Translations under genes and position numbers: made by a program | NCBI GenBank assembly: GCA_945868805.1 | Contig: CAMBMO010000013.1 | Coordinates: 1 to 61,553 of the forward strand | DNA length: 61,553 nt | Reading direction: 5' to 3' | Source of the DNA: Singulisphaera sp. GP187 | GTDB taxonomy: Bacteria > Planctomycetota > Phycisphaerae > Phycisphaerales > SM1A02 | In this document: positions 2,102 to 21,160 of the stretch, piece after piece | Position numbering within the stretch: the stretch's first letter is position 1 | How the letters are laid out: each line of letters starts with the position of its first letter | The notes under the pieces: generated by a model | Database searches by the model: none | What the model saw: only the letters and a program-made list of their open reading frames with translations | What the model was told of the DNA's origin: nothing

Positions 2102-4360
2102 TCAACCCCAGTCCGAGAGAAGCAGGGTCAGGTCTGCGCCATCAGCAGTTCCATCGTGATTGATGTCTCCGGACCCCGAGGTACCCCAAGTCGAAAGCAA
2201 GAATGTCAAATCAGTTCCATTGACCACTCCATCGCCGTTGATGTCGCCTGGCCGTGGCGGAGCGCAGTCGAAACCAAACATGCGCAGATCGTCGACTCCC
2301 GCCTCGACGAGGCTTCCGGTATCCAAGTCACGCGCCTGAAATCGCACGCGCATCGCGTTGGTCGGTGCCATGAAGTTCGCGATTCGAATCCGTTTTTCTG
2401 TCCAGGAACCAGGGCTCGCTGTCACCAACTCGACCTGTGTCCACGTTGTTCCAGCGTTGTTGGAGAGGAGCATCGGCATCGAATCAAGTCCAGGCGCGCC
2501 ACCCAAGTTGTTGGAGTACCAGACATAGCAACCGATCACCGGATCCAAAATCAAAGTCGCATCGATTGACGGCGATGTGAGGGACGTCGTTCCACCATCA
2601 ACATCCGCGACTCCTGCGCCACCACCAACGACGCCGTTGCCCGTTATCCACGCCGAAACTCCGCTGGGGGTGTGATCGTCTTCTGGTTGGGCAGTCGTCC
2701 CGACTGGATTGGCACGCTCCCAAAGTCCGCTCACTGCATTGTCGCCCGTCGCTCCGACCGTCCATCCGTTCGCCGAAACTTCCATTTCGTCGGTGAAAGA
2801 AACTGATTCGCCGTACGCCACGGATGCGGTGTGATTTCCGCTCGGAGGATCCCGAATGACGCTCCCACTCGCGAGCGTGAATTCGACGGCGAATGAAACT
2901 TGCGATGGACAGGCGAGCGCCGTGAAATTTGCCTTCCACTGACCTGGACTCGTTGGGATCAAAGGCACACGCAGATCAGCGCCCGAACCGGTGTTGTAAA
3001 CAAGCGTTGCACCACCCGGAGCGATCGACTGTCCTGCGGCGAGAACGGTCGCGACATTGAATGATCCCCCGATCGGATCGATCTGGGTCGGAATGCCATT
3101 GGGATAGCTGATAGTGATCGGCGCCGCGCCAAGCGTCCAGACGAAAAGTCCGCGCTGGATATCGCTCCCGATGACCGTCCCACTCGGGAAGTATGGGTAG
3201 TTGCTCCAAAGTCCCGCATAACCAGTCGCATTCTCCGCTGGATAGGTATCGAAGTATGCCGTTTCGTTCGGCGACGTGCGATTGGTGATGTCGTAGATGC
3301 GCAATCCGCTCTTGTAATTGCTCGCAAAGAGATTGTTTCCCTTGATGTACAGATTGTGGTCGACCGAGACAACTCCGTTGGTGTAACCACCCGCATAGAA
3401 CGGCGCCGCGAGATTCTGAATGTCGATGATGCGAGTCAGTCCAATCACGCCGAAACTCGACTCGTCGATCTCGTCGTTGATATATGCATACTTGAAGTCA
3501 GGCGAGATCCACACTTGATGGCAGTAGGCAGCATTCGCGTAAGTGGCGCGACCGATGACGACGATGTTCGCCTTGTCGGTGATATCGATGATGTCCAATC
3601 CCGTGTCCGTTTGCCCGCTGTTGAGGCCGCCACACGCAAGAAAAATCTCGCGCCCCGCATAAGGACCACTCGGCCAGACAAAGACCGCTCCGTCGTGCGT
3701 GTACTTGGGATTCCAAGCACTGACATATGCGGGAAGCGCTGGATTCGCAAGGCTGTAGCAACGAATCCCGCTCGAACCTCCGCCCATTCGATACAAGAAT
3801 CCCGTCGCCTCATTGATGATCATCGTGTGGGACGATGCCACGCCACCGTCGGTGACGGTGCCGAGATCCGTAATGACGCCAGTATCGATCCCAGCGAGAT
3901 CGAAGATCTGAATGCCACCGCCGCCTTCGCTCACCGCATAGCAGTAGTGCTGATATGTCTTCATATTGCGCCAAAGACTGTCGCTCGCACTTGCCGGTCG
4001 AGCCTTGAATTGGACGAGCTGCGATGCGGCTGGGTTTGTGACCTCGACAAACGCCGTTCCGTTGCTCATCCCAAGAATCGCGTACTCGCGACCGCTCGGA
4101 CTGACATAGCCCCAAGAATCACTCGCACTCGTCGCCGCAGCGCTGATGGCGGTGAATGGAAACCAAGCCTGCAATTGAACACCCGACGAACTGAAAGTCT
4201 CTCCAGCGATTCCACCCTCGCTGGCGCGCCAGATCGGCCCGAAGAAGGGTGGCTCGTTGTTCTGATCTTTGGGATCGTCTTCGTGGGCGATCGCGGCGAC
4301 GACGAGCGTCATCCCCACGAGCACCGATGTGATCCACGACCGAGGGCGCGATAAGCTCAT
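2102..4360 (-). CDS. Choice-of-anchor B / LVIVD beta-propeller protein with C-terminal dockerin-like module
   Basis: An exported protein of about 752 residues. ATG 4360 gives a clean signal peptide (basic MSLSRPRSW, then a hydrophobic core ending near VVAAIAHE). The frame runs open upstream to 4474, but that extension would overlap the peroxidase gene. Residues 40-430 carry the repeated short metal-like propeller blades of the LVIVD/choice-of-anchor B family (IQIFDLAGID, LDIIDITDKANIVVIG, RIYDITNRT). A beta-sandwich with an acidic, Gly-rich stretch follows. The last 52 residues hold two calcium-binding loops (GDINGDGVVNGTDL and GDINHDGTADGADL), the dockerin-like anchor seen in Phycisphaerae secretomes. 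It is last in a four-gene operon, 35 bases after the peroxidase stop. Its ligand is unknown. Confidence 0.88.
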   Translation of the reverse strand: MSLSRPRSWITSVLVGMTLVVAAIAHEDDPKDQNNEPPFFGPIWRASEGGIAGETFSSSGVQLQAWFPFTAISAAATSASDSWGYVSPSGREYAILGMSNGTAFVEVTNPAASQLVQFKARPASASDSLWRNMKTYQHYCYAVSEGGGGIQIFDLAGIDTGVITDLGTVTDGGVASSHTMIINEATGFLYRMGGGSSGIRCYSLANPALPAYVSAWNPKYTHDGAVFVWPSGPYAGREIFLACGGLNSGQTDTGLDIIDITDKANIVVIGRATYANAAYCHQVWISPDFKYAYINDEIDESSFGVIGLTRIIDIQNLAAPFYAGGYTNGVVSVDHNLYIKGNNLFASNYKSGLRIYDITNRTSPNETAYFDTYPAENATGYAGLWSNYPYFPSGTVIGSDIQRGLFVWTLGAAPITISYPNGIPTQIDPIGGSFNVATVLAAGQSIAPGGATLVYNTGSGADLRVPLIPTSPGQWKANFTALACPSQVSFAVEFTLASGSVIRDPPSGNHTASVAYGESVSFTDEMEVSANGWTVGATGDNAVSGLWERANPVGTTAQPEDDHTPSGVSAWITGNGVVGGGAGVADVDGGTTSLTSPSIDATLILDPVIGCYVWYSNNLGGAPGLDSMPMLLSNNAGTTWTQVELVTASPGSWTEKRIRIANFMAPTNAMRVRFQARDLDTGSLVEAGVDDLRMFGFDCAPPRPGDINGDGVVNGTDLTFLLSTWGTSGSGDINHDGTADGADLTLLLSDWG

Positions 4361-4395
4361 GTCATACTTTACCCCGCCACCGCAATGCGTCCAGT

Positions 4396-5754
4396 TCAAT
4401 CGTGCGGTTTTTCGGTTGGTACCGCCACAGGTGGCAGTTGTTGCGGGGGCGAAAGTGCGGGATCTCGCGTCCACTGGGACGGTGGTGGCGCCCCATCGAG
4501 GGAACGCAAAAACGCCTCGAGATCCAGCAATTCTTGCTCCGAAAAATCGCGTCGCTTCAGCACCAATTCGCGGTGGTGATCCATGGTGACGGCTCCGTCG
4601 AGTGTGCTGTAGAAACGCAGAACTTCTTCAAGAGTCGCGAATTGTCCCTGATGAAAGTAGGGCGCGGTGAGTCCGAGGTTTCTCAGCGACGGGGTTCGGA
4701 ATGCACCCCACTGATCTGGTTGAGCAACGAGCGATTCGACGATTTGCGCGCGCTCGACACGAGGCGAATCCGAGTGTGGTCCTCCCGTGCGAAATGGGCT
4801 CGCGAGGAGTTTGTCCACTGCGCCAAATCGACCAGGATCGGAGATCAAGTCGTTGCGAGGAGCGGCGCCGAGCGCGTGAAACTCTCCATCGCTCAGAAGC
4901 GGTCCCGCATGACATTTCCAACAAAGCGCGCGGCTTGTAAAGAGATCGAGTCCGCGCTGCGCGCTGGCAGAGAAATCTCCCGCGGGCACTCGATCAAGTT
5001 CACGAGTCATGCGCAAGTCGCGCCAACGATCCACCCAGCGGTCGAACGCGCTCGGACCAGTCATTAACCGTCGCTCGTACGCGGCGAGAGCCTTGCCGAG
5101 GTTCGACACGGCTTGTTCGACATGAAACGGCGTAAGCGGCGTAGCAGGGAATTGCCCGAAAATCGCCTCGTACTGACTGCAGATTTTCGCGTCCCCCCTG
5201 ATCGCATTGACCACTTGATCGAATGAAGCCCCCATCTCACGCGGATGGGAGATCGGACCGTGCGCCTGACTCCAGAGCGAATCGAATCGGCCATCCCAGT
5301 TGAACCAGGTCTGGTGTGCTGCGTCGAGGATCGTGAGCGTATTGCGAACACCGCGCGAGATCCCGACATTCAGGGCAAGACCATCGGTGAATCCGCGATC
5401 TGGTTGGTGACATGTCGCACATGAGATGTCGCCGTGCACTGAAAGCCTCTTGTCGAAGAAGAGGATGTGCCCCAGATTCGCCGCTCGAAGATCGTCGCAC
5501 ACATGATTCGTTTCGTCTGGCGAAAGCGGCCCGGGGAAACCCATCTCACTCACACGCTCGATCTGCGCCTGACCAAAGACCACACCAGAAAGTTCAGGTG
5601 ATTTGGGATCGGTCGGCGTTGGTTGAGAACATGCCCAGAGCGCTAGGTAGAGGGACAGCCAGAGCGCCACGCAGATCGAGGGCGCGCACGCGATCGAAGA
5701 GAACAAGGCTCTCAGTACATCCCGATGTTCCACTGTGCTCTTTCCACGGTGCAT
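4396..5754 (-). CDS. Di-heme cytochrome c peroxidase / MauG family lipoprotein
   Basis: Two c-type heme sites are visible: CATCH at residues 112-116 and CWKCH at 278-282. The spacing and flanks (FFDKRLSVHGDISC, FTSRALCWKCHAGPLLSDGEFH, then TPSLRNLGLTAPYFHQGQ) are those of the bacterial CcpA/MauG family. These periplasmic enzymes reduce peroxide or oxidise a protein partner through two hemes. The N-terminus has a hydrophobic segment ending in a lipobox-like ALWAC, so it is probably a periplasmic lipoprotein. The start is ATG 5754. GTG 5733 is a good alternative because GGAAAGAG lies just upstream and the overlap with the previous gene shrinks. It is third in the operon, after the YtkA-like gene. 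Confidence 0.9.
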   Translation of the reverse strand: MHRGKSTVEHRDVLRALFSSIACAPSICVALWLSLYLALWACSQPTPTDPKSPELSGVVFGQAQIERVSEMGFPGPLSPDETNHVCDDLRAANLGHILFFDKRLSVHGDISCATCHQPDRGFTDGLALNVGISRGVRNTLTILDAAHQTWFNWDGRFDSLWSQAHGPISHPREMGASFDQVVNAIRGDAKICSQYEAIFGQFPATPLTPFHVEQAVSNLGKALAAYERRLMTGPSAFDRWVDRWRDLRMTRELDRVPAGDFSASAQRGLDLFTSRALCWKCHAGPLLSDGEFHALGAAPRNDLISDPGRFGAVDKLLASPFRTGGPHSDSPRVERAQIVESLVAQPDQWGAFRTPSLRNLGLTAPYFHQGQFATLEEVLRFYSTLDGAVTMDHHRELVLKRRDFSEQELLDLEAFLRSLDGAPPPSQWTRDPALSPPQQLPPVAVPTEKPHD

Positions 5755-6143
5755 CCGTCGTCAATATCGACATCAACTTCCCATCGTCCGGTCATGTGAA
5801 AGAGCATTCCGTCCGCTCGCCCGCCCTGTTCGTCGAGCAGAATCGTTGGCGCGACATTCATCCCGTGTCCATGCTCGGGCATCTGAGCATCGACCACGAT
5901 CAATCGTGGCGTTTGGGGCGGTGTACATGTCGACTCCAGTTTCAATTCGATCGTGAACCTGCGCCGAGGAACCGGAAGTTCCACCTCCCGCTGGTCGACG
6001 AGCAATCGCCACTTCACTCGCCACGATCCATCATTGCTCGTCACTTCCTTCCACGGAGGTTTTGCGTCGACTCGCTGAAGCGCAAGCGATCCCGCTCCGC
6101 AAAGAACAAGCGCGATGGCGACACGGGGCGCAATCGGATTCAC
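5712..6143 (-). CDS. YtkA/FixH-like exported small domain protein
   Basis: This 143-residue protein starts at GTG 6143, which overlaps the TGA of the NHL gene as GTGA. The longer open frame upstream is just read-through in the NHL gene. A hydrophobic N-terminal segment (RVAIALVLCGAGSLALQ) serves as signal or anchor. The rest matches the YtkA-like pattern of a small beta-sandwich, with a characteristic MPEHGHGM turn and a late FHMTGRWEVDVDID strand. Such domains sit next to copper, heme and peroxidase genes and are thought to be periplasmic. Here the gene is fully embedded between the NHL protein and the peroxidase. The C-terminus overlaps the peroxidase start. Confidence 0.72.
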   Translation of the reverse strand: MNPIAPRVAIALVLCGAGSLALQRVDAKPPWKEVTSNDGSWRVKWRLLVDQREVELPVPRRRFTIELKLESTCTPPQTPRLIVVDAQMPEHGHGMNVAPTILLDEQGGRADGMLFHMTGRWEVDVDIDDGCTVERAQWNIGMY

Positions 6144-8122
6144 TGCTTCGAATCCTCGGGGATCGCGACTGGTCCGTCTGTCTTTTTGCGAATTCGAAGG
6201 ACCTCGTCCGCCGTTCGCGCGCGGGTGTATGTCCGCCCCAAACTGAATGTCATCTCCCAATCGCCCGACGAACTGAACCGCTGCGCCCGGTGATTACCAC
6301 CATCGACAACATAGATCTCGCCACCACTCCCAATCGTCGCGGCACCCGGGAGCCACAATTGGCCATCGGCGACGCCCCGCGAGCCCGTTCGACTCGCCGT
6401 CCCCTCAGAGTTCAATCGAGTAACTGAATCCCCCCACGAATCGACGACCAACCACTCGTCATTGGGCATCGCGACGAGCCCATTCGCACATGCCACATCC
6501 GCGAGCGTTCGAGTTTCCGTTGATCGCCACGAAAGTCCCTCGCGCACATACAGACAGAGAATCGCCGGTCGATCAAAGAGCACTCCAACGACCCCGCTCT
6601 GTCCAATCGCAATGGAACAAGGACGAGCAGTCGTGTCGGGAGCAGAAATCGGTGCGGCAGTCTCCGTCCTCAGTGATGAGTCCAATGTCACGATCGACGG
6701 TCCTTCTTCCGAGAGTGCGAGCACGAGATCGTTTGGACCGCGTGCAAGCCCGACGATTTTCGTTCCAGCGGGAAGCCCGAGCCGGTCATACGGACGAGTC
6801 TTCACCAACCTGGCCATGAATGGTTCGAAGATGATCTCCTTCGGAGGGGGAGTCAACTCCCACAGGGCCAAGCGGCGGTTGATCCCGTCCGCAACGAGCA
6901 ACCGAGTCCCGCCGGCAAGGCCGACCATCGCATCGATCGAACCAAACTCATGTGGCTTTGCGCCAGCCGATCCGACATTCGACACGTGAAGCGGCTGTCC
7001 CTTCGACAAATCGAAAACAACGATGCTGCACGACTCTGGATCATGCATGAAAAGTCGCTGGCCTTCACGAGCGACTGAGTCACCGAAGTGGCTCTGGACT
7101 CCGTCGAGCTTTGGGAGGACGAGCCGGATGTCGACTGGCTCAGCATCCAGACCGGGTTCGAATGCTTGTATTCGCCGCTCAAATGGTTCGCAGACCACCG
7201 CAAGAGATCGCTTGGATGATCCAATTGAGACATCTCGACAAACTGCGATCGCCGTCGGGTAATGAACTGCACCCTCTCCCTCACGGGGCCGAACGGCGTG
7301 CTGACCGTACGCGAGTTGTCCTTGCCCCCGAGCATCTTGGCGTGATATCCGGTGGTTGTACTGATCTGCGACAAAGATCCAATTCCCATCGCTCGCGACT
7401 CCGAGCGGATGGTTGAAGAGCCCCGGAAATGGACCGCGCCCTCCCCACACCTGGAGGACCCGCACTGGATCGGAACCCTGTGGCGGCTCAAAGACGAAAA
7501 CGTGATTCTGCTCCGCGGCGGTCGCAACCAATCTGCCAAACCCAGCGAACGCAATGCCGCTCGGCGTGCAGATCGATCCATCTTTCTTCTTGAAAGTCTC
7601 GCGACCGATGCGTCGGATCACCTCGCCCGTCTCCGAGCAGATCACAATTTCTCCACTTGCATCGTCGACGATCGCGACGCACGCGAGTGGTGGCACGCCG
7701 GCTGTTCCGACTGCGATCGAGCCTGGTCGACCGAAGAATGTGTCCGCGGCGAATCGCTTTATCCACGCGCCTGATGTCGCATAGTGTTCGACTCGACCGC
7801 GCCTGCGGTCGCAGAGGAGAAACGAACCATCTGGTAGCGCCGCGACGGCGCTTGGTTCCACGAGTTTCTCGTCGCCCGCACTCTTCGTACGCCAAAGGAT
7901 CGAACCGTCGAGCGCGGATACTCCGACAAACTCACCGCTTGAATCTGCGACTGCGACCACTCCGGCCGGCACGATCGCACACGCGACTGGCGACTCGAAG
8001 CCACCCCTCTGCCAGAGGAACTTTCCTGCCAACTCGCTCGACGATGGAATCGCTTGGGGCACACTCTGCACAGTCGTGCCCGCCGCGACGACGAGAGAGA
8101 GTGTCATGATTGCGACGATCAC
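6140..8122 (-). CDS. Exported NHL-repeat beta-propeller protein
   Basis: This 660-residue protein starts at GTG 8122 with a signal peptide (MTLSLVVAAGTTVQS core). The rest is a series of six-stranded propeller blades of the NHL type, clearest at NHPLGVASDGNWIFVADQYN and GEIYVVDGGNHRAQRF. Similar blades recur about every 45-60 residues (PDGSFLLCDRRRGRVEHY, GTRLLVADGINRRLALWEL). NHL propellers bind peptides or other ligands. No catalytic motif is visible. It heads the exported operon, is separated by only 29 bases from the divergent antiporter gene, and is coupled to the YtkA-like gene by GTGA. Confidence 0.82.
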   Translation of the reverse strand: MIVAIMTLSLVVAAGTTVQSVPQAIPSSSELAGKFLWQRGGFESPVACAIVPAGVVAVADSSGEFVGVSALDGSILWRTKSAGDEKLVEPSAVAALPDGSFLLCDRRRGRVEHYATSGAWIKRFAADTFFGRPGSIAVGTAGVPPLACVAIVDDASGEIVICSETGEVIRRIGRETFKKKDGSICTPSGIAFAGFGRLVATAAEQNHVFVFEPPQGSDPVRVLQVWGGRGPFPGLFNHPLGVASDGNWIFVADQYNHRISRQDARGQGQLAYGQHAVRPREGEGAVHYPTAIAVCRDVSIGSSKRSLAVVCEPFERRIQAFEPGLDAEPVDIRLVLPKLDGVQSHFGDSVAREGQRLFMHDPESCSIVVFDLSKGQPLHVSNVGSAGAKPHEFGSIDAMVGLAGGTRLLVADGINRRLALWELTPPPKEIIFEPFMARLVKTRPYDRLGLPAGTKIVGLARGPNDLVLALSEEGPSIVTLDSSLRTETAAPISAPDTTARPCSIAIGQSGVVGVLFDRPAILCLYVREGLSWRSTETRTLADVACANGLVAMPNDEWLVVDSWGDSVTRLNSEGTASRTGSRGVADGQLWLPGAATIGSGGEIYVVDGGNHRAQRFSSSGDWEMTFSLGRTYTRARTADEVLRIRKKTDGPVAIPEDSKQ

Positions 8123-8151: not shown

Positions 8152-9486
8152 GTGATGTTGGCATCGCACGCATCATGGCCGATTGGAACTTTGCCATTCA
8201 TAGGACTTCTGCTCGCCATTGCGGTACTGCCGCTCGTGCCGAGATCGTCTCATTGGTGGCACTCAAATCGAAACAAGGCAATCGTCTCGGTGGGATGCGG
8301 GTTGCTTGCGCTGGCATTCCTGGCGATCACCGAAGGATTCTCCGCGTCGGGGCAGGTCCTCGCCCACACAATATTGACCGAGTACGTGCCATTCATGGTT
8401 CTCCTTGGTTCGCTCTACATCGTCGCCGGGGGCATCGCGCTCCGTGGAGATTTCACGCCAACGCCAGCGACGAACACTGGAATCTTGGCATCTGGTGCGA
8501 TTCTGGCAAGTGTGCTCGGAACGACTGGGGCGAGCGTGCTCTTCATTCGTCTGCTCATCGATACAAATCGACGCCGCACCCGGGTCGCGCACACGGTCGT
8601 CTTTTTCATTTTTATCGTTTCGAATGTCGGCGGATTGCTCCTTCCAATCGGTGACCCGCCGCTCTTTCTTGGATACCTCCGTGGAGTGCCTTTCTTCTGG
8701 ACACTGAACATGTGGCCACAGTGGATTTTCACGGTCGCGCTCCTGTTGGCGATCTACTTTGTGCTCGACACATGGTTGATGAGGCATGAGACCGCGACTA
8801 CGACTTCGCTCGGTTCCAAGCCCTCCGGAAGAATCCAGATCAGCGGATGGGTGAATTTTCTTGCGCTCGGGGGAATCCTGGCGAGCGTCATCGTTCTCAT
8901 TCCGGGGCGACCATTTCCGGGGACGAACGCAGTCATTCCTTCGTTCGCACGCGAGATCGCGATGTGCCTCTTTGCTGCGATCAGTCTTTGGATGACCCCG
9001 ACGGGCGTACGAGCTGCCAACAAGTTTTCATGGGGACCGATTCTTGAGGTCGCGGCACTCTTCATCGGCATATTTGTAGCGATGCAGGTGCCGATGGCCG
9101 TTCTTGCCGAAAAGGGTGCGGAACTTGGCGTCACAAGCCCTGCACAGTTCTTCTGGGTGAGTGGAACGCTTTCAAGCTTCCTCGACAATGCGCCGACCTA
9201 TCTCGTCTTTCTCACGATTGCGGCAAGCCTTCCAGTTGATCTGGGTGCAACCATGATCACACTCAACGATGGCGCGCAGGTCAGCGCGACACTCTTGACC
9301 GCCATTTCGCTTGGAAGCGTCTTTATGGGAGCGAACACTTACATCGGCAATGGGCCCAATTTCATGGTGAAGGCGATGGCGGAAGAAGGTGGAGTTCGCA
9401 TGCCAAGTTTCTTCGGATTCATGGGCTGGTCGATCGCTGTGCTGATCCCCGTCTTTGTACTCGTGACGATTTTGTTCGAGTACTAG
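8152..9486 (+). CDS. NhaD/ArsB-type sodium:proton antiporter
   Basis: An integral membrane protein of 444 residues with about 11-12 hydrophobic helices. Family-typical signatures are TGASVLFIRLLIDTN, the conserved SNVGGLLLPIGDPPLFLGYL loop, and SSFLDNAPTYLVFLTIA with the buried DNAPT motif of the ion-transporter superfamily. NhaD-type proteins exchange cytoplasmic sodium or lithium for external protons. The start is GTG 8152, followed directly by an in-frame ATG at 8155. It diverges from the NHL operon, so both promoters must lie inside coding sequence or in the 29-base gap. It ends 92 bases before a convergent lipoprotein gene. Confidence 0.85.
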   Translation: MMLASHASWPIGTLPFIGLLLAIAVLPLVPRSSHWWHSNRNKAIVSVGCGLLALAFLAITEGFSASGQVLAHTILTEYVPFMVLLGSLYIVAGGIALRGDFTPTPATNTGILASGAILASVLGTTGASVLFIRLLIDTNRRRTRVAHTVVFFIFIVSNVGGLLLPIGDPPLFLGYLRGVPFFWTLNMWPQWIFTVALLLAIYFVLDTWLMRHETATTTSLGSKPSGRIQISGWVNFLALGGILASVIVLIPGRPFPGTNAVIPSFAREIAMCLFAAISLWMTPTGVRAANKFSWGPILEVAALFIGIFVAMQVPMAVLAEKGAELGVTSPAQFFWVSGTLSSFLDNAPTYLVFLTIAASLPVDLGATMITLNDGAQVSATLLTAISLGSVFMGANTYIGNGPNFMVKAMAEEGGVRMPSFFGFMGWSIAVLIPVFVLVTILFEY

Positions 9487-12319: not shown

Positions 12320-12340
12320 GCCAATCGAGTGAGGATGGAC

Positions 12341-15049
12341 ATGTGCCACAAGTACGCTCGCGATGTGGCGAACGACACGGTGAACAACGAAAAAGCTGCG
12401 TCGCCAGCCAATCGCGACACGCCAGCGATGCGGCAGTACCAGCGCTTCAAGGCAGAGCACCCGGGATGCATGCTCTTCTTTCGAATGGGCGACTTCTACG
12501 AGATGTTTCACGATGATGCCATCCGGGCACATCGCATCCTCGGGATCACGCTGACCCAGCGCAGTGCGGGGATCCCGATGGCGGGTGTTCCATTTCATTC
12601 GGCCGAGGGGTACCTGCGTCGACTCGTCGAACATGGAGAACGTGTCGCAGTCTGCGAACAAATTCAAGACCCCAAGGACGCCAAGGGTGTCGTCGATCGC
12701 GCGGTCGTTCGCGTCGTGACACCTGGAACTCGCGTCGACGAGGCACTGCTCGAAGCTGGAACGCACAACATCGTTGCGTCGATTGCGATCATTGGCGATC
12801 GCGCGGCCATCGCTCTCGTCGAACTTTCCACTGGATCATTCCGCGTCCTTCCATGCGAAGCGCAGAGTCTTTCGGATGAACTCGCGCGCTCAGCGCCATC
12901 GGAAGTCATCTGTGCAGAAGAAGCGCAACTTCCCAATGGTTCGTCCCTACGCGAACTCGCCAACTTGATGCAACTCCCCATCACGACGCGACCTCCCTGG
13001 TCGATGGGGTCGGAAGAGTCTTCGAATGTGCTCCGCAAACACTACGGCGTTGGATCGGCGAGTGCGTGGGCGCTCGACGGCGCCTCGATCTGCGCAGCCG
13101 GCGGTCTGTTGGGATACCTCCTCGAAACACAGTCGGGATTCGCCGTTGATGGTGCCGCCGGCACAGCAGCTGGAGTGCGAGATTTGTCGCATCTCGAAGC
13201 GCCGAGAGTCGTGGACCGATCGAAGTTTGTCGTCCTGGACGCCTGGACTCTGCGAGCCCTTGAAATCGAGCGGACATCGCTCGCGGGAACGACCGACTCA
13301 TCCCTCGTCGCGACACTCAATTGCGCTCGGACTCCGATGGGCCGTCGAATGCTTCGTGACTGGATGTGCTTTCCACTCCGCGATCAACACGCCATCGAAG
13401 GCAGACTCGACGCGGTCGCTTCACTTGTCCAAGATTCATCGCTACGCGAATCTCTCTCATCGGTTCTCGGGCGCATCCAGGATGTCGCCCGCATTCACGG
13501 GCGCGTGGCGATGCGCCGTGCGACTCCACGCGACGTGGTCGCTCTCGGCCGATCACTCGCAGCACTTCCGACCACCATTGAATTGCTTGAAGGAGTCGAG
13601 GCGTTCGCAGAGTCGTACGCACGACTCTCGGTGCTTGGGATTGGATTGACAGAACTCGGCATGCGCATCGTCCGATCGTGCGTCGACGATCCCCCCGCTC
13701 ACTTGCGCGAAGGCGGACTCCTCCGCGAAGGTATCGATGCGGATCTCGACGAGGCGAAGGCTCTCCAACGCGACGCCGGCGAGTGGATTGCCAATTATCA
13801 GAGCCAACTGATCCGCGAGAGTGGGATTGACTCTCTGCGAACGGGCTTCAATCGAGTCTTCGGCTACTACATCGAAGTCACGCACACGCATACGGCGCGG
13901 GTGCCGATCACATTTACGCGCAAGCAGACTCTTCGAAATGCAGAGCGATACATCACGCCCGAACTGAAGGCCTTTGAGGACCGCGTCCTTCATGCCGAAT
14001 CCCGAGCATTTGAGCGCGAAAGACAATTGTTCGAGCAGATTCTCGAGGCGATTTCTGGGCGCGCGAGCGACCTCGCTGCGTTCGCGGACACGATCGCTCA
14101 ACTGGACTGTGTCACTTCTTTCGCCGAGACGGCTGTTCGACACGCGTACGTTCGCCCTGAAATTTCTCGGGTTCCACTCCTCGAGATCGACCAAGGTCGG
14201 CACCCAGTTCTCGACCGATCGCTCGGTGGAAAGTTCGTCCCCAACGAATGCACTCTCGGCACACCGAATGTGTACGCGACACTCGCACTGGTCACTGGTC
14301 CGAACATGGCAGGTAAGTCGACATTCATTCGACAGAACGCGCTCATCGCATTGATGGCACTCTCCGGAAGTTTCGTGCCGGCGAAACGCGCGGTCGTAGG
14401 AGTGTGCGACCGAATCTTTGCACGCATTGGTGCGGGCGATGAACTGCACGCCGGCCGTTCGACATTCATGGTCGAGATGACCGAGACCGCAAACATTCTC
14501 CACCATGCCACTGAGCAGAGCCTCGTCGTGCTCGACGAAATCGGGCGTGGCACGAGCACGCTCGATGGACTCAGCCTCGCATGGGCGATGACCGAGTGGC
14601 TCGCCCAGAAACGCGTCCGCACGCTCTTTGCGACGCATTATCACGAACTGACCGCTCTCGCAGACGACGAACGGGCGATCTGCAATCTGCAAGTCGGCGT
14701 GCGCGAGTGGAAAGACGAAGTCATTTTCCTTCACCGGATCGAGCCTGGACGTGCTGATCGCTCCTATGGCATTCATGTCGCAAAATTGGCAGGTGTGCCC
14801 GCGAAAGTTGTGGAGCGCGCCACGAAGATCTTGGAAACTCTCACTGTCCAGGCTGCAACGCCCACTCGGCGACGGAGCGCGCGCGACGACGACCAGCCAT
14901 CGCTTTTTGCTCCTCCAGTTACGAGCGCGCCACCACTGCCTGCGCTTCACCCAATCGTTCGGGAAATCTCCGAAATCTCGGTTGAGAATCTCACCCCGCT
15001 TGCCGCGTTCGATCTCTTGCGTAAGTGGAAGTCGAGCATCGACCAATAG
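12341..15049 (+). CDS. mutS: DNA mismatch repair protein MutS
   Basis: A protein of about 902 residues, close to the usual length for MutS. The mismatch-recognition motif MGDFYEMF lies near residue 50. The ATPase domain has Walker [10 protein letters not shown], Walker B with [12 protein letters not shown], and the downstream FATHYHELT. It binds mispaired bases and recruits MutL. GAGG (12331-12334) lies six bases ahead of ATG 12341. GTG 12329 and ATG 12335 in the same frame are alternatives. The gene diverges from tRNA-Ala and ends 24 bases before the convergent giant gene. mutL is not in the window. Confidence 0.97.
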
Positions 15050-15073
15050 ACGCGAGCGACAATAATTGCGCTT

Positions 15074-18000
15074 TCACTTTGGTTGCCGCTTCGGTTGCGT
15101 TGGGGACCGAGTCTCTTCGATCCCGGCGATCACGATCGCCATATCGTCTGCCGTGATTTGACCATCGCGGTTGAGATCGCCAACGAACTGATCGCTCGAA
15201 ATCCATGCTTCCAGAAATGCCGAGAGATCCTTGTCGTCAATCGTGCCATCGACTGTTACATCTCCCCGTTCCTGAGCGCAAACCGCGGGTTCGGCTCCCA
15301 AACGTGGCTCGAAGAGAGAAGTCAATCGTTCAATCAACACCTCCAGAGATTCCGCTTCGCTGTCCGTCAGTCCACCACGCGAAAGGCGATTCAAGTGCGA
15401 TTGAATCTGACGCGCCAGCTCATGCGAGACAATCTCGCAAGGACCGAACTTCTCGTCGATGTCGTCGACAACTTCGGCGGGGATCTTGGCGCTGAGCGAG
15501 TCACTCAACGACTCGCCAGACGATCCATCCGAATCTGGCACGTTGTCCATTCCAGATGCATCGCTCACATCACTTTCGCCACGCGTCCCATTCGATTCAC
15601 TGCCGCCACCCGCCACACCTCCCTCGTCACCCTTCCCATCCCCTCCAGCAAACCCAGGCGGTCTGATTCCTGTGTCAGGCAAACTCATCAGCGTCGCAAC
15701 AGTCGTTTCGAGCATGACTCCTGCGAGCACGTACTTCATCCTGACGGAGTATGTGGCCGTCACGCCCGACGGGATCGAAAAGTCATCGAAGATGAATGTC
15801 AGCGCGTCGGTCACACCCACGAGTGTCGGCGATTCCTCTGCAAGAGATCGCCAGAGTTCGAACCCAACCAGCTCGAGAGCGGTCTTTCCTGTTGGCGAGG
15901 CGTTCCATGTCACGCGCACTTTCACAGGGTCGGTATCCGTAGCGACGAGATCAATTGGCGCAGGATGATTCGCATATCCGAGATTTCCAGCACTCGGAAG
16001 ACTCAAACCCACCGCGCCGATCGCTCGAACTCGGTACACGGCAGCGCTCCCGGAGAGAGCGGAGAAGTCGCTGAATGTCGTGACCACGCCGATCGTCGCG
16101 ATCGCAAGGGAAGAAGAGTCCTTGAAGATCGAGTATCCCGTCGCGCCGATAGACCCGACCCAAGTCAATTCCACGCGATCGGAGAACGATCCATTGGATG
16201 CCGCCACGGCCGTCGGAGGCGAGAGATTCCGGAAGCCGCTCTCTTCGACGCTCAAATCACTCACTCCAACGCCACCAACTGCAACGACCGCGTATGAGTA
16301 CAGAGTTCCTGGAACGGCCGTCAAATCGTGGAAAGTCGTCTCGACCCCGACAGTTCCAATCTCGGTCGCGCCTCGGTTTCGATAAATCTTGTATCCAGTT
16401 GCGGCGAACGATGTCGACCAATTCACGCTTATCTTTCCAGTGAATGTTCCGTCCGACGCCGAAAGCTCGACAGGTGCCTTGAGCTTTCGATACCCCGTGT
16501 CCGCGAGACTCACGACGCTCACTCCAACGATTCCATGAGACTTGACCGAGTATGTGTACGGCGTCCCGGGGATGGCAGAGTTGTCATTGAATGTCGTCGA
16601 AGCTGGAACCACCGCGATCGGAGCGATCGAACCGTTGCGGAAGATGGAATACGAGGTCGCGCCGATCGATCCGCTCCATGTCACGGTCACATGCGATGTC
16701 GATGTTCCATCGGAGGCGATCACGTCGCTCGGAGGCGAGACATTGCAATATCCCGAGTTTGCCACGCTCGTCGCCGAGACCCCAGTCGCGATGATTGCGT
16801 TCACCGTGTACGGGTACGGCGTGCCTGCGATGGCGTCGAAGTCGGTAAATGTCTGAACGAGGTTTGACACCGTGCCGATCGGCGTTGTCGATCCACTGCG
16901 AAAGACGCCGTACCCAGTCGCTCCTGCCGATGGATTCCATGTCACGACGACCCTGTCCGTAAATGTGCCGTCAGTGGCAAAAACTCCAGTTGGTGCTGCC
17001 ACATTTCTCCAGCCAGGATCGCCGAGACTCGCGGTGGACATTCCCGTCGGAACGACGACCTTTACCGTGTATGTGTACGAATTGCCTGCAACCGCACTCG
17101 TGTCGCTGAATGACGTCACGACACCGACGCTCCCGATCGCCGTTGTCAAGCCATCTCGAAAGATCTTGTAGCCAATCGCCCCAAATGACGGCGACCAAGT
17201 CACTGCGACTCGATCTGTAAAAGCGCCATCCGATGCGGCGACATCGACCGGAGGCGCAATGGCACGGTAGCCGCTATTCCCTGCACTGAGAGCACTTGTT
17301 CCGATCATCCCAACCGCTCGAACCTTGTAAGTGAAGACCGTCCCAGGAATCGCGGTCGTGTCGGCGAAGGAAGTGACCGCTGAAAGGACTGCGAGCGGGC
17401 TGGCAGAGTCACTTCGCAGGATTTCGAATCCGACGGCACCAACCACGGAATTCCAGGTGACTTCGACGCGATCGGTGAATGTTCCATCTGATGCGGCAAC
17501 CCCAGTCGGCGCCGACAGATTTCGAAACCCCATATCGCTTGCACTCTCGGCAGAGAGGCCAGCCGCTGTACTCGCTTTGACGCTGTAGACGTACGAGATC
17601 CCCGCGAGTGCGCTCACATCAGTGAATGTCGTCGCGACACCAACGGCTCCAATCTGATTGGGAGCGCCACCACGGTAGATCTTGTACCCCGTCGCGCCAG
17701 TGACCGCGCTCCACCCGATCAGAACACTCGTCGTGCTCGTCCCATCGGACGCAATCACGTTCGTCGGCGCCGCTGGCGCGCGCCAACCGATCACACTCGC
17801 ACTAAGTTCACTCGCCCCGACGGCTCCGGTCGCCTTGACCGAATAGGAATAGCTCACGCCGATTGCGGCGGTGAGGTCGTCATAGGGCGACGCCGTCGCG
17901 GTTCCGGGCGCCAGTGGTGCGCCGTTTCTGAAGATCACATAGGAAATCGCGCCTTCCGAGCCAACCCACGAGATCCGCACTCGATCGGTCAATCCTCCGA

Positions 18001-21000
18001 TGGAGACGACGCTCGTCGGCGGGAGCAAGTTGCGGTAACCCGTCTCGCCAACACTTCTTTCACTCATTCCTGCCGAATTCGTCGCGACGAGAGCGTATGT
18101 GTACAAAATTCCAGGGAGGGCAGTCAGATCGTCGAACGATGTCACGCTCGCTACCGTTGCAATCGCTTCAAGCGAGTCGCTCCGAAAGATTTGATAGCTC
18201 GTCGCATCGGCAACTATGTCCCACGCGATCGCGATGTGATCGGTGAACGCGCCGTCCGTTGCAGAGACATTTGTCGGCATGGCTGGAATCGACTGGCCTC
18301 CGAGAGTCAACCCAGACACACGAAAGGTCGATGAAAACCTGGTGGAATCATCGAATTTCCCGGTGATCACCATTCCATCCGCAGAGATGCCGGCCTCTTT
18401 GAGTATCCAACCACCGAGATTTAGTCCCAGACCCGTGAGGTATGCCTCGAGGTCGATGACCCCGAGTTGCGCTGTCCAGAAACACGCGACCCGGTCGAAT
18501 TCTCCGCCGCCACCACGACGTGAACCGCAGATCACCGAGCCATTGCCGGTCATGTTCGTGATGCGCTCCATGGGAGCGAGCCCCACCATTCCTTGACCCG
18601 AAGTCCATCGGAAGACACTCGAGATCTGTTGCCCTTGCTTCGAATCAAATCCCCAGCACTCGCCGGCGATAACGACGCCATCGCGACTGACCCCCCTCGC
18701 CATTGAGTCAGTAAACCCATCCAAGACTCCAAGGTTCGACATGAGACCGCCGGACCATCGAAACGCTCGCGCACTGACATCCCCGCAGGCTCCGACAACG
18801 ATCGAGCCATCGTCGCTCACATCGCTCGCGAACGACTTCGTGAATCCGTCGAGGACTCCAAGACCAACCATTCCAGCGCTCGTCCAACGAAACGCTTCCG
18901 TCAGAGAACTCTGCGATTGATCCAGGAATGACTCTCCAACCACGACCGATCCATCGATATTGACGGTTCTCGCCTTTGACATCGTGAATCCATCGAGCAC
19001 GCCGAGATCGGACATCACACCTTGACTCCATCGGAATGCGTTGTGCCGAGAAATGGAATTGCCGTCGAAATCTTCGCAACTACCAACGACAACCATCCCA
19101 TCGCCGCTGACTCCCGCGCTGGTCGAATGGCCAACAAACCCTGGCAGAATTCCAAGATCGATTGGATCGGCATTCGTCCAAAGGCACGCGCGAGTGAACC
19201 CTCCACCTCGACTCTCGCCGACGACGACACTTCCGTTTCGACTCAGGCGGCGCTCGCCCCCGGTCGACTCGGACGTGTTGATGGCCGCAATCGAATCGCC
19301 CGCGAGCGGTCGTAACTCGATCATTCCATTGGAGAGTGACCAGCGATAGGGACGGTTGCTTGACACGCCCATTCCGATGATGATCGAGCCGTCGTCACTG
19401 ATACCCGATGGTTCCGAGTGATCGGGCAATCCAACGAGTTCGACCATGCCAGCGATGGTCCATCGAAATGCGCTTGGATCTGCGCCACCAAGCCCGCTAC
19501 TTGTCCCGACCACGACTGAACAATCACGACTCGTCCCCTCGACCTTGCAGTTGATATCCCCTGGCAGATGTCCGAGGTCTCGCATCCCTGTGCTGATGCT
19601 CCAGTGGAATCCAGATGTCGAATCGAATGAACTTGAACTCCGAACAGTCCCGACCAGAGCACCTCCTTCGTCACTCACGACACAATTCACGATCGAATCG
19701 GGGAGCGCGCTCGGGGGCAATCCGAGGTCTTCAAATGGGAACTCCGGCGACGAACGGAAAACTCTTGAGCCGCTGAATGTCCCAACAATGACTGATCCAT
19801 CGCCGTTCATGTCGTGTGCATGACAGTCTCTCTGCGTGTCACTGACGAAATCCCATCCATCGCCGAGAATCCAGAGCGAGGCGCGCCGTGTTGGTCCCGC
19901 CGCCGTTAAACCATCTCGGTTGGCGACAACCACTGACCCCGAGTCATCGAGCTGAAAATCATCCAACCATGTTGCGTTGGCGAGTAAGTCGCTCGGAACA
20001 CCAAGGTCCATCCATTCTGGCGCTCCCTTCGACTCGGTCCAGCGGAACAAGTGCACAGGACTCGTGCCACTTTCGCTAGAGAGTGTCAAGACACCCGTAC
20101 CAGGTTGCGAGGCATAGCCACCAAGCCGGACGAGATACGTCTCTCCCAGGACGGCTTGAAAAGTCAATCGACTGCTGAAATAGTCGCAACCAACGACATC
20201 GTCATTGCACGCGAGCAGTTCGCCGCCGCATTCGCTCAAGACCTCGAGCCGAGTGTCGAAGTCGGTCTGATTGCATGTGCTCAATGTGATTGATTCGGTC
20301 GCCTGTGCGTAGTAAGTGAACCAAATGTCGCGGTAAAAGGTCGCGGCAAAAGGGCTACAGCTCGGATCTGTCGGGTTATTGCCGTCGGTCTGAGCACCAA
20401 ATGTCGAAAACGGCGTGTCGCCAAATTGAATTGGGATCGCGTCCGCGCACAGATCGTTCCCACCGCCCGTCACTCCAGACGATCCACTCAGCGCAATTTG
20501 AACTACCACGACGGACCCATCACCGCTTATCCGAACGCCCTTCTGCGAAAGCCCGAGGACGACCTCACCTGGTGGAATTCCCATTTCCTGAGCGATCGCG
20601 GACCCGGCCGTCCAGCGAACGAGTCGCAAGATCATCGTTTGTCCTGCTTGGTCCCAGCGTCGACTCGCCCCAACCACGACCGTTGCATCTGAGCTTGCAT
20701 TGAATGCGACAGAGTTCGTGTCGCCTGGAATGGGCTCTAGGAGTGTGGTTTCGTTGGGAGCAGTCCATCGAAACGCTCGAGGCCCCGCTTCAGTCTCGGC
20801 ATTCCCGACAATGGCACTGCCATCGAAACTCACTCTCAAGAGTGCGATGTTCGTTGCGGTCGATCCAAGATCGAATGCGATCGGGACCGCTCCACTCGCG
20901 CTCGTCCAACGAAAGAAGCGCCCTTGCTGAGACTGAGAGTCGGATGCACTTTCTCCGATGACGACCACGCCATCTCCGCTTACAAGGCGTGCGATCGACG

Positions 21001-21160
21001 ACGCCGGTAGCCCGCCCAAATCCTCAATCGCAAGTTGTGCTGGAGCGCTGAGAGCGCTGAGAGCGATCACCAACGCGGGAATCCATCCCACGAATCGGTA
21101 GTTCGTGCGATCCGAGCGCATGAACTTCATGAACAAGCAAGTGGCAACTCTCATAAACAA
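15074..21160 (-). CDS. Giant exported HAF / PPC / fibronectin-III / dockerin-like protein
   Basis: A mosaic of 2,028 residues, probably a surface or exoprotein. A signal peptide ends near ALSAPAQ (residue 42). Residues 45-230 and 370-955 carry HAF-type repeats (pattern DGSVVVGES ... AFRWT, ending in a Gly/Thr-rich blade). Between them, residues 232-368 form a PPC-like beta-sandwich (NDLCADAIPIQFG, DIWFTYYAQ, LLACNDD). Residues 962-1827 are ten fibronectin type III modules of about 87 residues. A Gly/Ser/Asp linker follows, and then a two-loop dockerin-like module (GDVTVDGTIDDKDL, GDLNRDGQITADD) at about 1967-2025. Start at ATG 21160. It is convergent with mutS with 24 bases between. The target is unknown. 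Confidence 0.85.
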   Translation of the reverse strand: MFMRVATCLFMKFMRSDRTNYRFVGWIPALVIALSALSAPAQLAIEDLGGLPASSIARLVSGDGVVVIGESASDSQSQQGRFFRWTSASGAVPIAFDLGSTATNIALLRVSFDGSAIVGNAETEAGPRAFRWTAPNETTLLEPIPGDTNSVAFNASSDATVVVGASRRWDQAGQTMILRLVRWTAGSAIAQEMGIPPGEVVLGLSQKGVRISGDGSVVVVQIALSGSSGVTGGGNDLCADAIPIQFGDTPFSTFGAQTDGNNPTDPSCSPFAATFYRDIWFTYYAQATESITLSTCNQTDFDTRLEVLSECGGELLACNDDVVGCDYFSSRLTFQAVLGETYLVRLGGYASQPGTGVLTLSSESGTSPVHLFRWTESKGAPEWMDLGVPSDLLANATWLDDFQLDDSGSVVVANRDGLTAAGPTRRASLWILGDGWDFVSDTQRDCHAHDMNGDGSVIVGTFSGSRVFRSSPEFPFEDLGLPPSALPDSIVNCVVSDEGGALVGTVRSSSSFDSTSGFHWSISTGMRDLGHLPGDINCKVEGTSRDCSVVVGTSSGLGGADPSAFRWTIAGMVELVGLPDHSEPSGISDDGSIIIGMGVSSNRPYRWSLSNGMIELRPLAGDSIAAINTSESTGGERRLSRNGSVVVGESRGGGFTRACLWTNADPIDLGILPGFVGHSTSAGVSGDGMVVVGSCEDFDGNSISRHNAFRWSQGVMSDLGVLDGFTMSKARTVNIDGSVVVGESFLDQSQSSLTEAFRWTSAGMVGLGVLDGFTKSFASDVSDDGSIVVGACGDVSARAFRWSGGLMSNLGVLDGFTDSMARGVSRDGVVIAGECWGFDSKQGQQISSVFRWTSGQGMVGLAPMERITNMTGNGSVICGSRRGGGGEFDRVACFWTAQLGVIDLEAYLTGLGLNLGGWILKEAGISADGMVITGKFDDSTRFSSTFRVSGLTLGGQSIPAMPTNVSATDGAFTDHIAIAWDIVADATSYQIFRSDSLEAIATVASVTSFDDLTALPGILYTYALVATNSAGMSERSVGETGYRNLLPPTSVVSIGGLTDRVRISWVGSEGAISYVIFRNGAPLAPGTATASPYDDLTAAIGVSYSYSVKATGAVGASELSASVIGWRAPAAPTNVIASDGTSTTSVLIGWSAVTGATGYKIYRGGAPNQIGAVGVATTFTDVSALAGISYVYSVKASTAAGLSAESASDMGFRNLSAPTGVAASDGTFTDRVEVTWNSVVGAVGFEILRSDSASPLAVLSAVTSFADTTAIPGTVFTYKVRAVGMIGTSALSAGNSGYRAIAPPVDVAASDGAFTDRVAVTWSPSFGAIGYKIFRDGLTTAIGSVGVVTSFSDTSAVAGNSYTYTVKVVVPTGMSTASLGDPGWRNVAAPTGVFATDGTFTDRVVVTWNPSAGATGYGVFRSGSTTPIGTVSNLVQTFTDFDAIAGTPYPYTVNAIIATGVSATSVANSGYCNVSPPSDVIASDGTSTSHVTVTWSGSIGATSYSIFRNGSIAPIAVVPASTTFNDNSAIPGTPYTYSVKSHGIVGVSVVSLADTGYRKLKAPVELSASDGTFTGKISVNWSTSFAATGYKIYRNRGATEIGTVGVETTFHDLTAVPGTLYSYAVVAVGGVGVSDLSVEESGFRNLSPPTAVAASNGSFSDRVELTWVGSIGATGYSIFKDSSSLAIATIGVVTTFSDFSALSGSAAVYRVRAIGAVGLSLPSAGNLGYANHPAPIDLVATDTDPVKVRVTWNASPTGKTALELVGFELWRSLAEESPTLVGVTDALTFIFDDFSIPSGVTATYSVRMKYVLAGVMLETTVATLMSLPDTGIRPPGFAGGDGKGDEGGVAGGGSESNGTRGESDVSDASGMDNVPDSDGSSGESLSDSLSAKIPAEVVDDIDEKFGPCEIVSHELARQIQSHLNRLSRGGLTDSEAESLEVLIERLTSLFEPRLGAEPAVCAQERGDVTVDGTIDDKDLSAFLEAWISSDQFVGDLNRDGQITADDMAIVIAGIEETRSPTQPKRQPK
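15690..18280 (-). repeat. Ten tandem fibronectin-III coding repeats
   Basis: Ten copies of about 260 bases each encode modules that start with variants of PTxVxASDGTFTDRV, continue with WxxSxGATGYxIFR and close with GTxYTYxVKA followed by SGYRN. Copies are diverged at DNA level but clearly related, so the array probably grew by internal duplication followed by drift. Confidence 0.8.

Follow-up and report, generated by a model that had tools for sequence, protein, structure and literature searches.

A conserved pair of a YtkA/FixH-like protein and a MauG/MbnH-like di-heme protein forms the core of an exported gene set with propeller proteins in Planctomycetota

DNA of Singulisphaera sp. GP187 (contig C13, genome size 2.5 Mb) was analysed over a stretch of 61,553 nucleotides, hereafter the window, whose minus strand carries four open reading frames (ORFs), A, B, C and D, in this order. 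Together they make up a compact set of genes for exported proteins. We found that its stable core is the B-C pair, i.e., a small YtkA/FixH-like protein and a di-heme c-type cytochrome that looks to work like MauG or MbnH, and that the propeller proteins A and D accompany it often, though not always, in Planctomycetota. Our favoured explanation, held tentatively and somewhat short of an even chance, is that the operon encodes an exported redox-maturation or copper-handling system of MauG/MbnH type, with the propellers as its clients. What our data show is how the genes are ordered, that the pair and the key residues are conserved, and which folds are predicted. To our knowledge, MauG-like di-heme proteins are common and few have known clients. 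Here, a widespread pair combines a strongly constrained small partner with two recurrent propeller neighbours, which makes the client findable by direct experiment.

The B-C pair was followed through the phylum in a sample centred on B. Among 294 genomes, B was present in 42, at 57 places including the window, and the 55 regions fetched cover the 56 other places. At 52 of these 56 places, C comes next after B on the same strand, no more than 600 bp away. The four exceptions are L195, where the contig ends, L199, L244 and L246 (locus numbers are ours); C and the motif of B described below are lost together in L246 and not in L199 or L244. A lies near B at 30/56 places and D at 32/56, five of the 32 D matches being weak (<250 bits), and all four genes occur together at 21/56. 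Moreover, on plasmids, C directly follows B in all five records with a B match, from Cereibacter, Polaromonas, Sinorhizobium, Gemmatirosa and Photobacterium. It is because of this order at 52/56 places and in 5/5 plasmid records that we regard B-C as the core unit.

In the window, the stop codon of A, which ends at 6140, and the GTG start of B at 6143 overlap by 4 nt (GTGA). C probably starts at GTG 5730 rather than at ATG 5754, since a start codon sits there in most orthologues of the genus; B and C would then overlap by about 19 nt. A gap of 35 nt separates C from D, which begins at 4360. All four proteins have hydrophobic, export-type N-termini, as judged by eye. A preliminary description, made from the DNA alone, had reported four coupled and overlapping genes on one strand, export signals on each of them, and the families NHL, choice-of-anchor B and Dockerin_1, and all of this was confirmed (E-values of 2.2e-12, 6.1e-91 and 4.7e-5, respectively). 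In the whole genome, the only CCP_MauG match and the only choice_anch_B match both fall within the gene set, so their co-location is not due to chance. None of the four proteins had a PADLOC match, and a role in anti-phage defence was discarded.

We then compared 61 related genomes, including that of the window, 37 of them from its family. C is present in 31/61 (E-value 1e-20), of which 28 belong to the family. In 23 of these 28 family genomes, the window counted, A, B, C and D are ordered on one strand (A being cut by a contig end in G009 and G034); in four others (G012, G019, G021 and G029) the set is cut by contig ends, and G036 has an inverted C, with D on a separate contig. Across the 37 family genomes, C and the D propeller are both present in 28 and both absent from 7; D alone is found in 2 (G028 and G030) and C alone in none. 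Their presence agrees in 35/37 (Fisher p 3.5e-6, uncorrected for kinship and for missing assembly, 5 of the 7 genomes with neither being <90% complete). A propeller-only query, run on the nine C-less family genomes and G036, found the propeller in G028, G030 and G036 alone, confirming its absence from the 7. The searches with many candidates scored the best 13 or 17 per genome, so counts of B and D may be low. These data bear on the reading that the genes are mere neighbours without shared function. A, D and the divergent neighbour of A (gene E in Table 1) are each missing from some lineages, as that reading would have it; the reading frames overlap, however, and the order persists in 23/28 family genomes and through much of the phylum, and we consider it highly improbable.

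A second sample, centred on D, comprises 80 loci and the window, with 88 full D proteins. C lies within the fetched stretch for 68 of them, and A, B and C together for 57. One of the loci with the cluster, L155, belongs to Poly30, a planctomycete in culture. The two samples partly overlap, since 11 of the 29 D, 11 of the 52 C and 11 of the 56 B of the phylum sample repeat those of the D-centred one. The idea of a single system, which was to fail if the four families were rarely neighbours elsewhere, thus survives, as they adjoin across the family and much of the phylum. The four-part system first proposed becomes a hierarchical unit, with B-C as the core, A and D as options, and D also occurring without C.

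The label of B, YtkA-like in the preliminary description, holds as a weak similarity: as a single sequence, B reaches 13.8 bits (E-value 0.092) against YtkA (PF13115), under the cut-off of 25.9. It has no NCBIfam match at E-values up to 1, its Cereibacter homologue is annotated as FixH family, and its sole PDB profile match at E-values up to 1 is the copper resistance protein 9ll2 (8e-4). We counted its conserved residues in three sets, of 58, 56 (the 11 repeats included) and, from plasmids, 5 sequences. M88, H91 and H93 are each kept in 57/58 (1 gap), 55/56 and 5/5; M117 in 58/58, 55/56 and 5/5; and W121 in every sequence of the three sets. H116 (56/58, 53/56, 0/5) and, as a looser rule, M95 (47/58, 39/56) are typical of Planctomycetota and missing from the plasmid set. 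The resulting MPxHxHGM...HM pattern suggests a soft-metal ligand set, with copper as the metal.

In C, both heme sites named in the preliminary description, CATCH and CWKCH, are present. Counts were made in sets of 61, 52 (again with 11 repeats) and 5 sequences: the first CxxCH is found in 59/61 (2 gaps), 52/52 and 5/5, and the second in 61/61, 52/52 and 5/5. By alignment, C also retains the family's Trp and Glu positions. In classical bacterial cytochrome c peroxidases, a Met is the sixth ligand of the high-potential heme, and MauG uses a Tyr in its place. Position 382 of C (longest-ORF numbering), whose Met in the peroxidases and Tyr in MauG we take to be these heme ligands, is Tyr in 61/61, 51/52 (1 gap) and 5/5 sequences. 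In an ungapped alignment, it faces the Met of the peroxidase 2c1u and the Tyr of the di-heme enzyme 6e1c, presumably MbnH. C thus departs from a classical cytochrome c peroxidase and agrees, in a loose sense, with the MauG/MbnH type, having two CxxCH and a Tyr for the axial Met.

The preliminary description had called C a di-heme peroxidase, and one rival explanation follows this line: C would be a normal di-heme cytochrome c peroxidase that is fed by B and serves in peroxide defence, with the propellers as scaffold or substrate binders. C does belong to the CCP_MauG family (Pfam, 2e-43), and its two best single-sequence PDB matches are peroxidases. Its di-heme character stands, but the near-invariant Tyr in place of Met lowers the peroxidase role, and a dedicated partner kept at 52/56 places is not expected for a detoxifier. 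'Peroxidase' is probably the wrong reading of C, and peroxide defence is unlikely. Because C resembles MauG and MbnH at the axial-ligand position, oxidation or maturation of a protein partner is likelier than peroxide scavenging. A lipobox-like site, sought with a loose regular expression, occurs in the 11 rows of the genus in the alignment and in only 3 of 12 rows from the rest of the family, so C is likely a lipoprotein in this genus only.

D scores well above the cut-off of TIGR04312 (choice_anch_B; 305.4 bits vs 100). The name choice-of-anchor presumably refers to a variable C-terminal surface anchor, and D has such an anchor, made of a dockerin (Dockerin_1, residues 704-747) and a shared module. 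Indeed, its last ~340 residues (about 403-752) have counterparts at the C-termini of further large proteins encoded by the same genome, which makes this end of D a shared surface-anchor module that extends beyond the dockerin. The dockerin noted in the preliminary description is thus real; as a tether specific to this system it was rejected, because Dockerin_1 occurs at 28 places in the genome, where it is a general anchor.

The AlphaFold2 (AF2) model of the mature chain of D, from 72 sequences, has a pLDDT of 89.3 and a pTM of 0.66. It contains seven inner strands, starting near model residues 54, 106, 154, 195, 255, 309 and 358. Four histidines, H178, H222, H281 and H335, lie at or beside the starts of the inner strands of blades 3 to 6 and are each kept in 87/87 (1 gapped) and 29/29 sequences of the two samples. 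From the strand order of the model, we infer that they converge on the propeller axis. Conserved Trp residues at 83 (84/88, 24/29), 130 and 385 lie in or beside the remaining inner strands. A fifth histidine, His26, directly follows the signal-like stretch and is kept in 86/86 of the 88 D proteins with that column and, in the phylum sample, in 24/24 (5 gapped). The residue before it (-1) is A in 71, G in 10, L in 3 and S in 2, and at -3 there are A 48, L 16, V 10, T 6, S 4, G 1 and P 1. Residues 1-3 of the model have low confidence, which makes the modelled position of His26 unreliable. In histidine-brace copper proteins, a mature N-terminal His binds copper through its N-terminal amine, together with a second His. 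D is likely the metalloprotein of the set, and the invariant His residues constitute a testable metal-site prediction for the choice-of-anchor B family.

Propeller hydrolases of the Sb-PTE type hold two metal ions on the axis of the propeller. D could be read as a metal-dependent hydrolase related to the Sb-PTE phosphotriesterase, with B-C maintaining its redox or metal state or standing as an independent neighbour. The haloalkylphosphorus hydrolase Sb-PTE (5hrm) is the top Foldseek match of D (E-value 1.3e-10; Z 30.3, root-mean-square deviation 2.6, 322 aligned residues, 18% identity). D shares with it the propeller fold and one His, as His281 aligns with a 5hrm His that we take to be a manganese ligand, in a weak piece of the alignment (i-Evalue 5). 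However, many unrelated propellers lie within 1 Z unit of 5hrm and 3bws scores higher (Z 31.6); the sequence match is marginal, since its whole-sequence E-value of 0.0025 comes from pieces none of which passes alone, and it is lost with a larger alignment; and the four blade His are a feature of D. We judge this hydrolase reading distinctly unlikely.

A homologue of D was also found in Pseudoalteromonas xiamenensis, as the only match that D gave in 72,556 plasmid records, with 31% identity and an hhalign probability of 100. Its gene is divergent to those of an MbnH (503 bits, cut-off 363) and an MbnP (153 bits, cut-off 140), and this single locus connects the family of D with a MauG-type pair in which the partner is another protein. 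In its sequence, a His comes right after the signal-like stretch. It has a Leu at the column of His178 in the hidden Markov model alignment; an AHNVYV seen by eye may be the counterpart and was not counted.

The other propeller protein, A, is made of two tandem NHL propellers, each probably with six blades. Its AF2 model (pLDDT 87.8, pTM 0.89) matches NHL domains in the PDB over residues 15-306 (Z 35.1) and Pizza6 over residues 325-610 (Z 27.3).

Taken as a MauG/MbnH-type system with propeller clients, the set could work as follows. C, with its Tyr-type second heme ligand and probably tethered to the membrane in the genus, would oxidise residues of proteins at the expense of peroxide or oxygen equivalents. 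B, its constant partner, has a Met/His motif that probably binds copper, and is the first candidate for the substrate of C, its electron partner, or a metal (copper) carrier. D and A would be downstream client or partner proteins outside the cell. D would be held there by its generic dockerin module, and its His-lined pocket would probably contain a metal delivered or readied by B-C. In this scheme we infer copper itself, the direction of the oxidation, the delivery to D, the contacts and the substrate.

Known systems share parts of this organisation. One of them is the mtoX-SCO1-mauG set, whose Cu methanethiol oxidase (MtoX) we take to be a propeller. It joins a Cu enzyme with four proposed N (His) ligands to a copper chaperone and a MauG homologue (PMC5739008), a logic like that proposed here. 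SCO1 stands there in the place of B, and D as a relative of SBP56/MtoX (PF05694) was rejected, having no such Pfam match at E-values up to 1; SBP56 passed the cut-off in 0/149 phylum genomes. MbnP/MbnH (TIGR04052/TIGR04039) resembles B-C in that a MauG-like di-heme enzyme and its partner are encoded by adjoining genes (PMC3621798). The di-heme-plus-partner principle is thus known, and the searches made brought up no precedent for a YtkA-like partner or for propeller clients. In the open-licence PMC literature, neither was met in the titles or abstract starts, as far as these go, of the matches listed; YtkA with peroxidase gave nothing relevant by title among the matches listed; and neither 'choice-of-anchor B', alone or with MauG, nor 'histidine brace' with copper and propeller retrieved a paper, which is not proof of absence.

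MopE/SACCP and CorA/CorB show the same partner-plus-di-heme pattern, with copper proteins co-transcribed with di-heme CCP-like proteins (PMC3912023), and they favour another explanation, surface copper scavenging. D (and A) would bind environmental copper like MopE/CorA, B-C would create or reduce the binding site, and no enzyme would be involved. The dockerin and the five invariant His of D fit this explanation as well. By comparison with MopE and CorA, our set offers no evidence of kynurenine. The few neighbours scanned (585-1130, 1237-1902, 8152-9486 and 12329-21160, which is not a systematic search) include no copper-uptake family, and the conserved Trp and Tyr that accompany the His of D look more like an enzyme pocket. 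We hold copper scavenging to be rather unlikely. A bolder extension of the redox-maturation proposal is that D represents the first recognised member of a new class of exported propeller metalloenzymes. Four blades in a row would supply an axial metal site of four His, over which the mature N-terminal His would form a His-brace-like cap, and a dedicated YtkA-like copper protein and a MauG-type di-heme enzyme would load or oxidatively mature it; the whole choice-of-anchor B family would then be one of copper oxidases or oxygenases. This is a speculative idea and we doubt that it is right.

Several observations weigh against a MauG/MbnH-type system with propeller clients. B-C stands without A and D at 15/56 phylum places. 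D, for its part, does not need C nearby, because it is found without C in 20 of the 88 loci (at least 3 of them too short upstream to tell) and, in other families of the order, beside unrelated genes. C shares with MauG of methylamine dehydrogenase the family and the Tyr in place of the peroxidase Met, but scores 152.9 bits against the MauG equivalog (TIGR03791, cut-off 443.85) and 143.2 bits against that of MbnH (TIGR04039, cut-off 362.85); it is neither MauG nor MbnH, as both scores fall below the cut-offs. B as a relative of MbnP was rejected, because it could not be matched to the single MbnP taken for comparison (hhalign probability 0.1), and its Trp121 may be structural, because 9ll2 has a Trp there too. 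The cross-phylum link between D and MbnP/MbnH rests on one locus. Any metal in the set is a prediction from sequence and modelled fold. Finally, among the His, Trp, Tyr, Cys, Met and charged residues of D, only Trp751, at the dockerin end, clearly differs between C-linked and C-unlinked proteins, the unlinked group not being clean since L127, L164 and L185 have <800 bases upstream. D as a residue-modified substrate of C was rejected on these grounds, and the claim that the propellers bind the target on which the peroxidase acts found no support in this comparison. Overall, the interpretation in the preliminary description was partly supported.

Around the B-C places without A and D, nine proteins were scanned, some of which may be wrong-frame ORFs. 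One lies by a separate A-B-C set of L192, and the eight upstream of B are a YHYH protein, a tRNA synthetase, an esterase, one marginal match and four without match. Upstream ORFs from 13 of the 15 places gave no match to A at E-values up to 10. The YHYH protein (PF14240, 4.8e-47; L230:7604-8932), directly upstream of the pair, is a possible alternative client. Two pairs of long ORFs upstream of A-less B-C, L210:9671-11959 with L213:9686-11311 (43% identity) and L211:10381-12399 with L218:9706-11361 (38% identity), are unlike A; they may be other partner families or in a wrong reading frame.

At the C-less loci, the neighbours of D (10 proteins from 7 loci) have no common family, and 3/10 have no family at all. 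Next to the cluster, D is repeated in tandem, in full or as a partial copy, in L088, L089, L134, L137, L166 and L181. About 3 kb downstream of D, L140 encodes a protein of 1618 aa (14234-19090) with a second CCP_MauG domain (4.6e-17; only L140 was scanned), and long proteins are similarly placed in L141, L142, L149, L154, L157, L225, L228, L229, L232-L235, L237, L239 and L240, all from one group of Planctomycetota. Clusters of the Planctomycetota type also occur in L126, L142 and L149, which are labelled Bacteroidia, Proteobacteria and Bacillota and are probably mislabelled metagenome-assembled genomes.

Table 1. Positions in the window of the four genes, of their residues of interest and of the divergent neighbour
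Feature	Position	Strand	Description
A	6140..8122	-	660 aa exported protein, two tandem NHL propellers, probably six-bladed (model)
B	5712..6143	-	143 aa, YtkA/FixH-like, exported, GTG start, partner of C
B motif M88-P-E-H91-G-H93-G-M95	5859..5882	-	candidate metal ligands (sequence)
B motif H116-M117...W121	5781..5798	-	conserved by alignment counts
C	4396..5730	-	di-heme MauG/MbnH-like c-type cytochrome; longest ORF from ATG 5754
C heme site 1 CATCH	5407..5421	-	residues 112-116, longest-ORF numbering
C heme site 2 CWKCH	4909..4923	-	residues 278-282, longest-ORF numbering
C Tyr382	4609..4611	-	position of the cytochrome c peroxidase Met; longest-ORF numbering
D	2102..4360	-	752 aa, choice-of-anchor B seven-bladed propeller (predicted), C-terminal anchor module and dockerin
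D C-terminal anchor module	2105..3130	-	ends in the dockerin (2120-2251)
D His26	4283..4285	-	predicted mature N-terminal residue
D His178	3827..3829	-	just before inner strand, blade 3 (model)
D His222	3695..3697	-	inner strand, blade 4 (model)
D His281	3518..3520	-	inner strand, blade 5 (model)
D His335	3356..3358	-	inner strand, blade 6 (model)
E	8152..9486	+	CitMHS_2 transporter (PF16980, 2e-149), divergent neighbour of A

A gene does diverge from A, as the preliminary description had it, and its family is CitMHS_2 instead of the NhaD-type antiporter first named. E is divergent from A in 16 of the 20 family loci fetched with room upstream. The same query that gave 17 matches in the family loci, as a positive control, gave 0 in the 55 phylum loci, and E was rejected as a core member, being conserved in the family only. 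Downstream of D, on the minus strand, lie a protein with sigma-70 region 2 (1237-1902) and, just downstream of D as well, a small protein with a weak carboxypeptidase-regulatory-like match (585-1130). Further away in the window, a fibronectin-type/dockerin protein of 2028 aa (15074-21160, minus strand) adjoins mutS (12329-15049).

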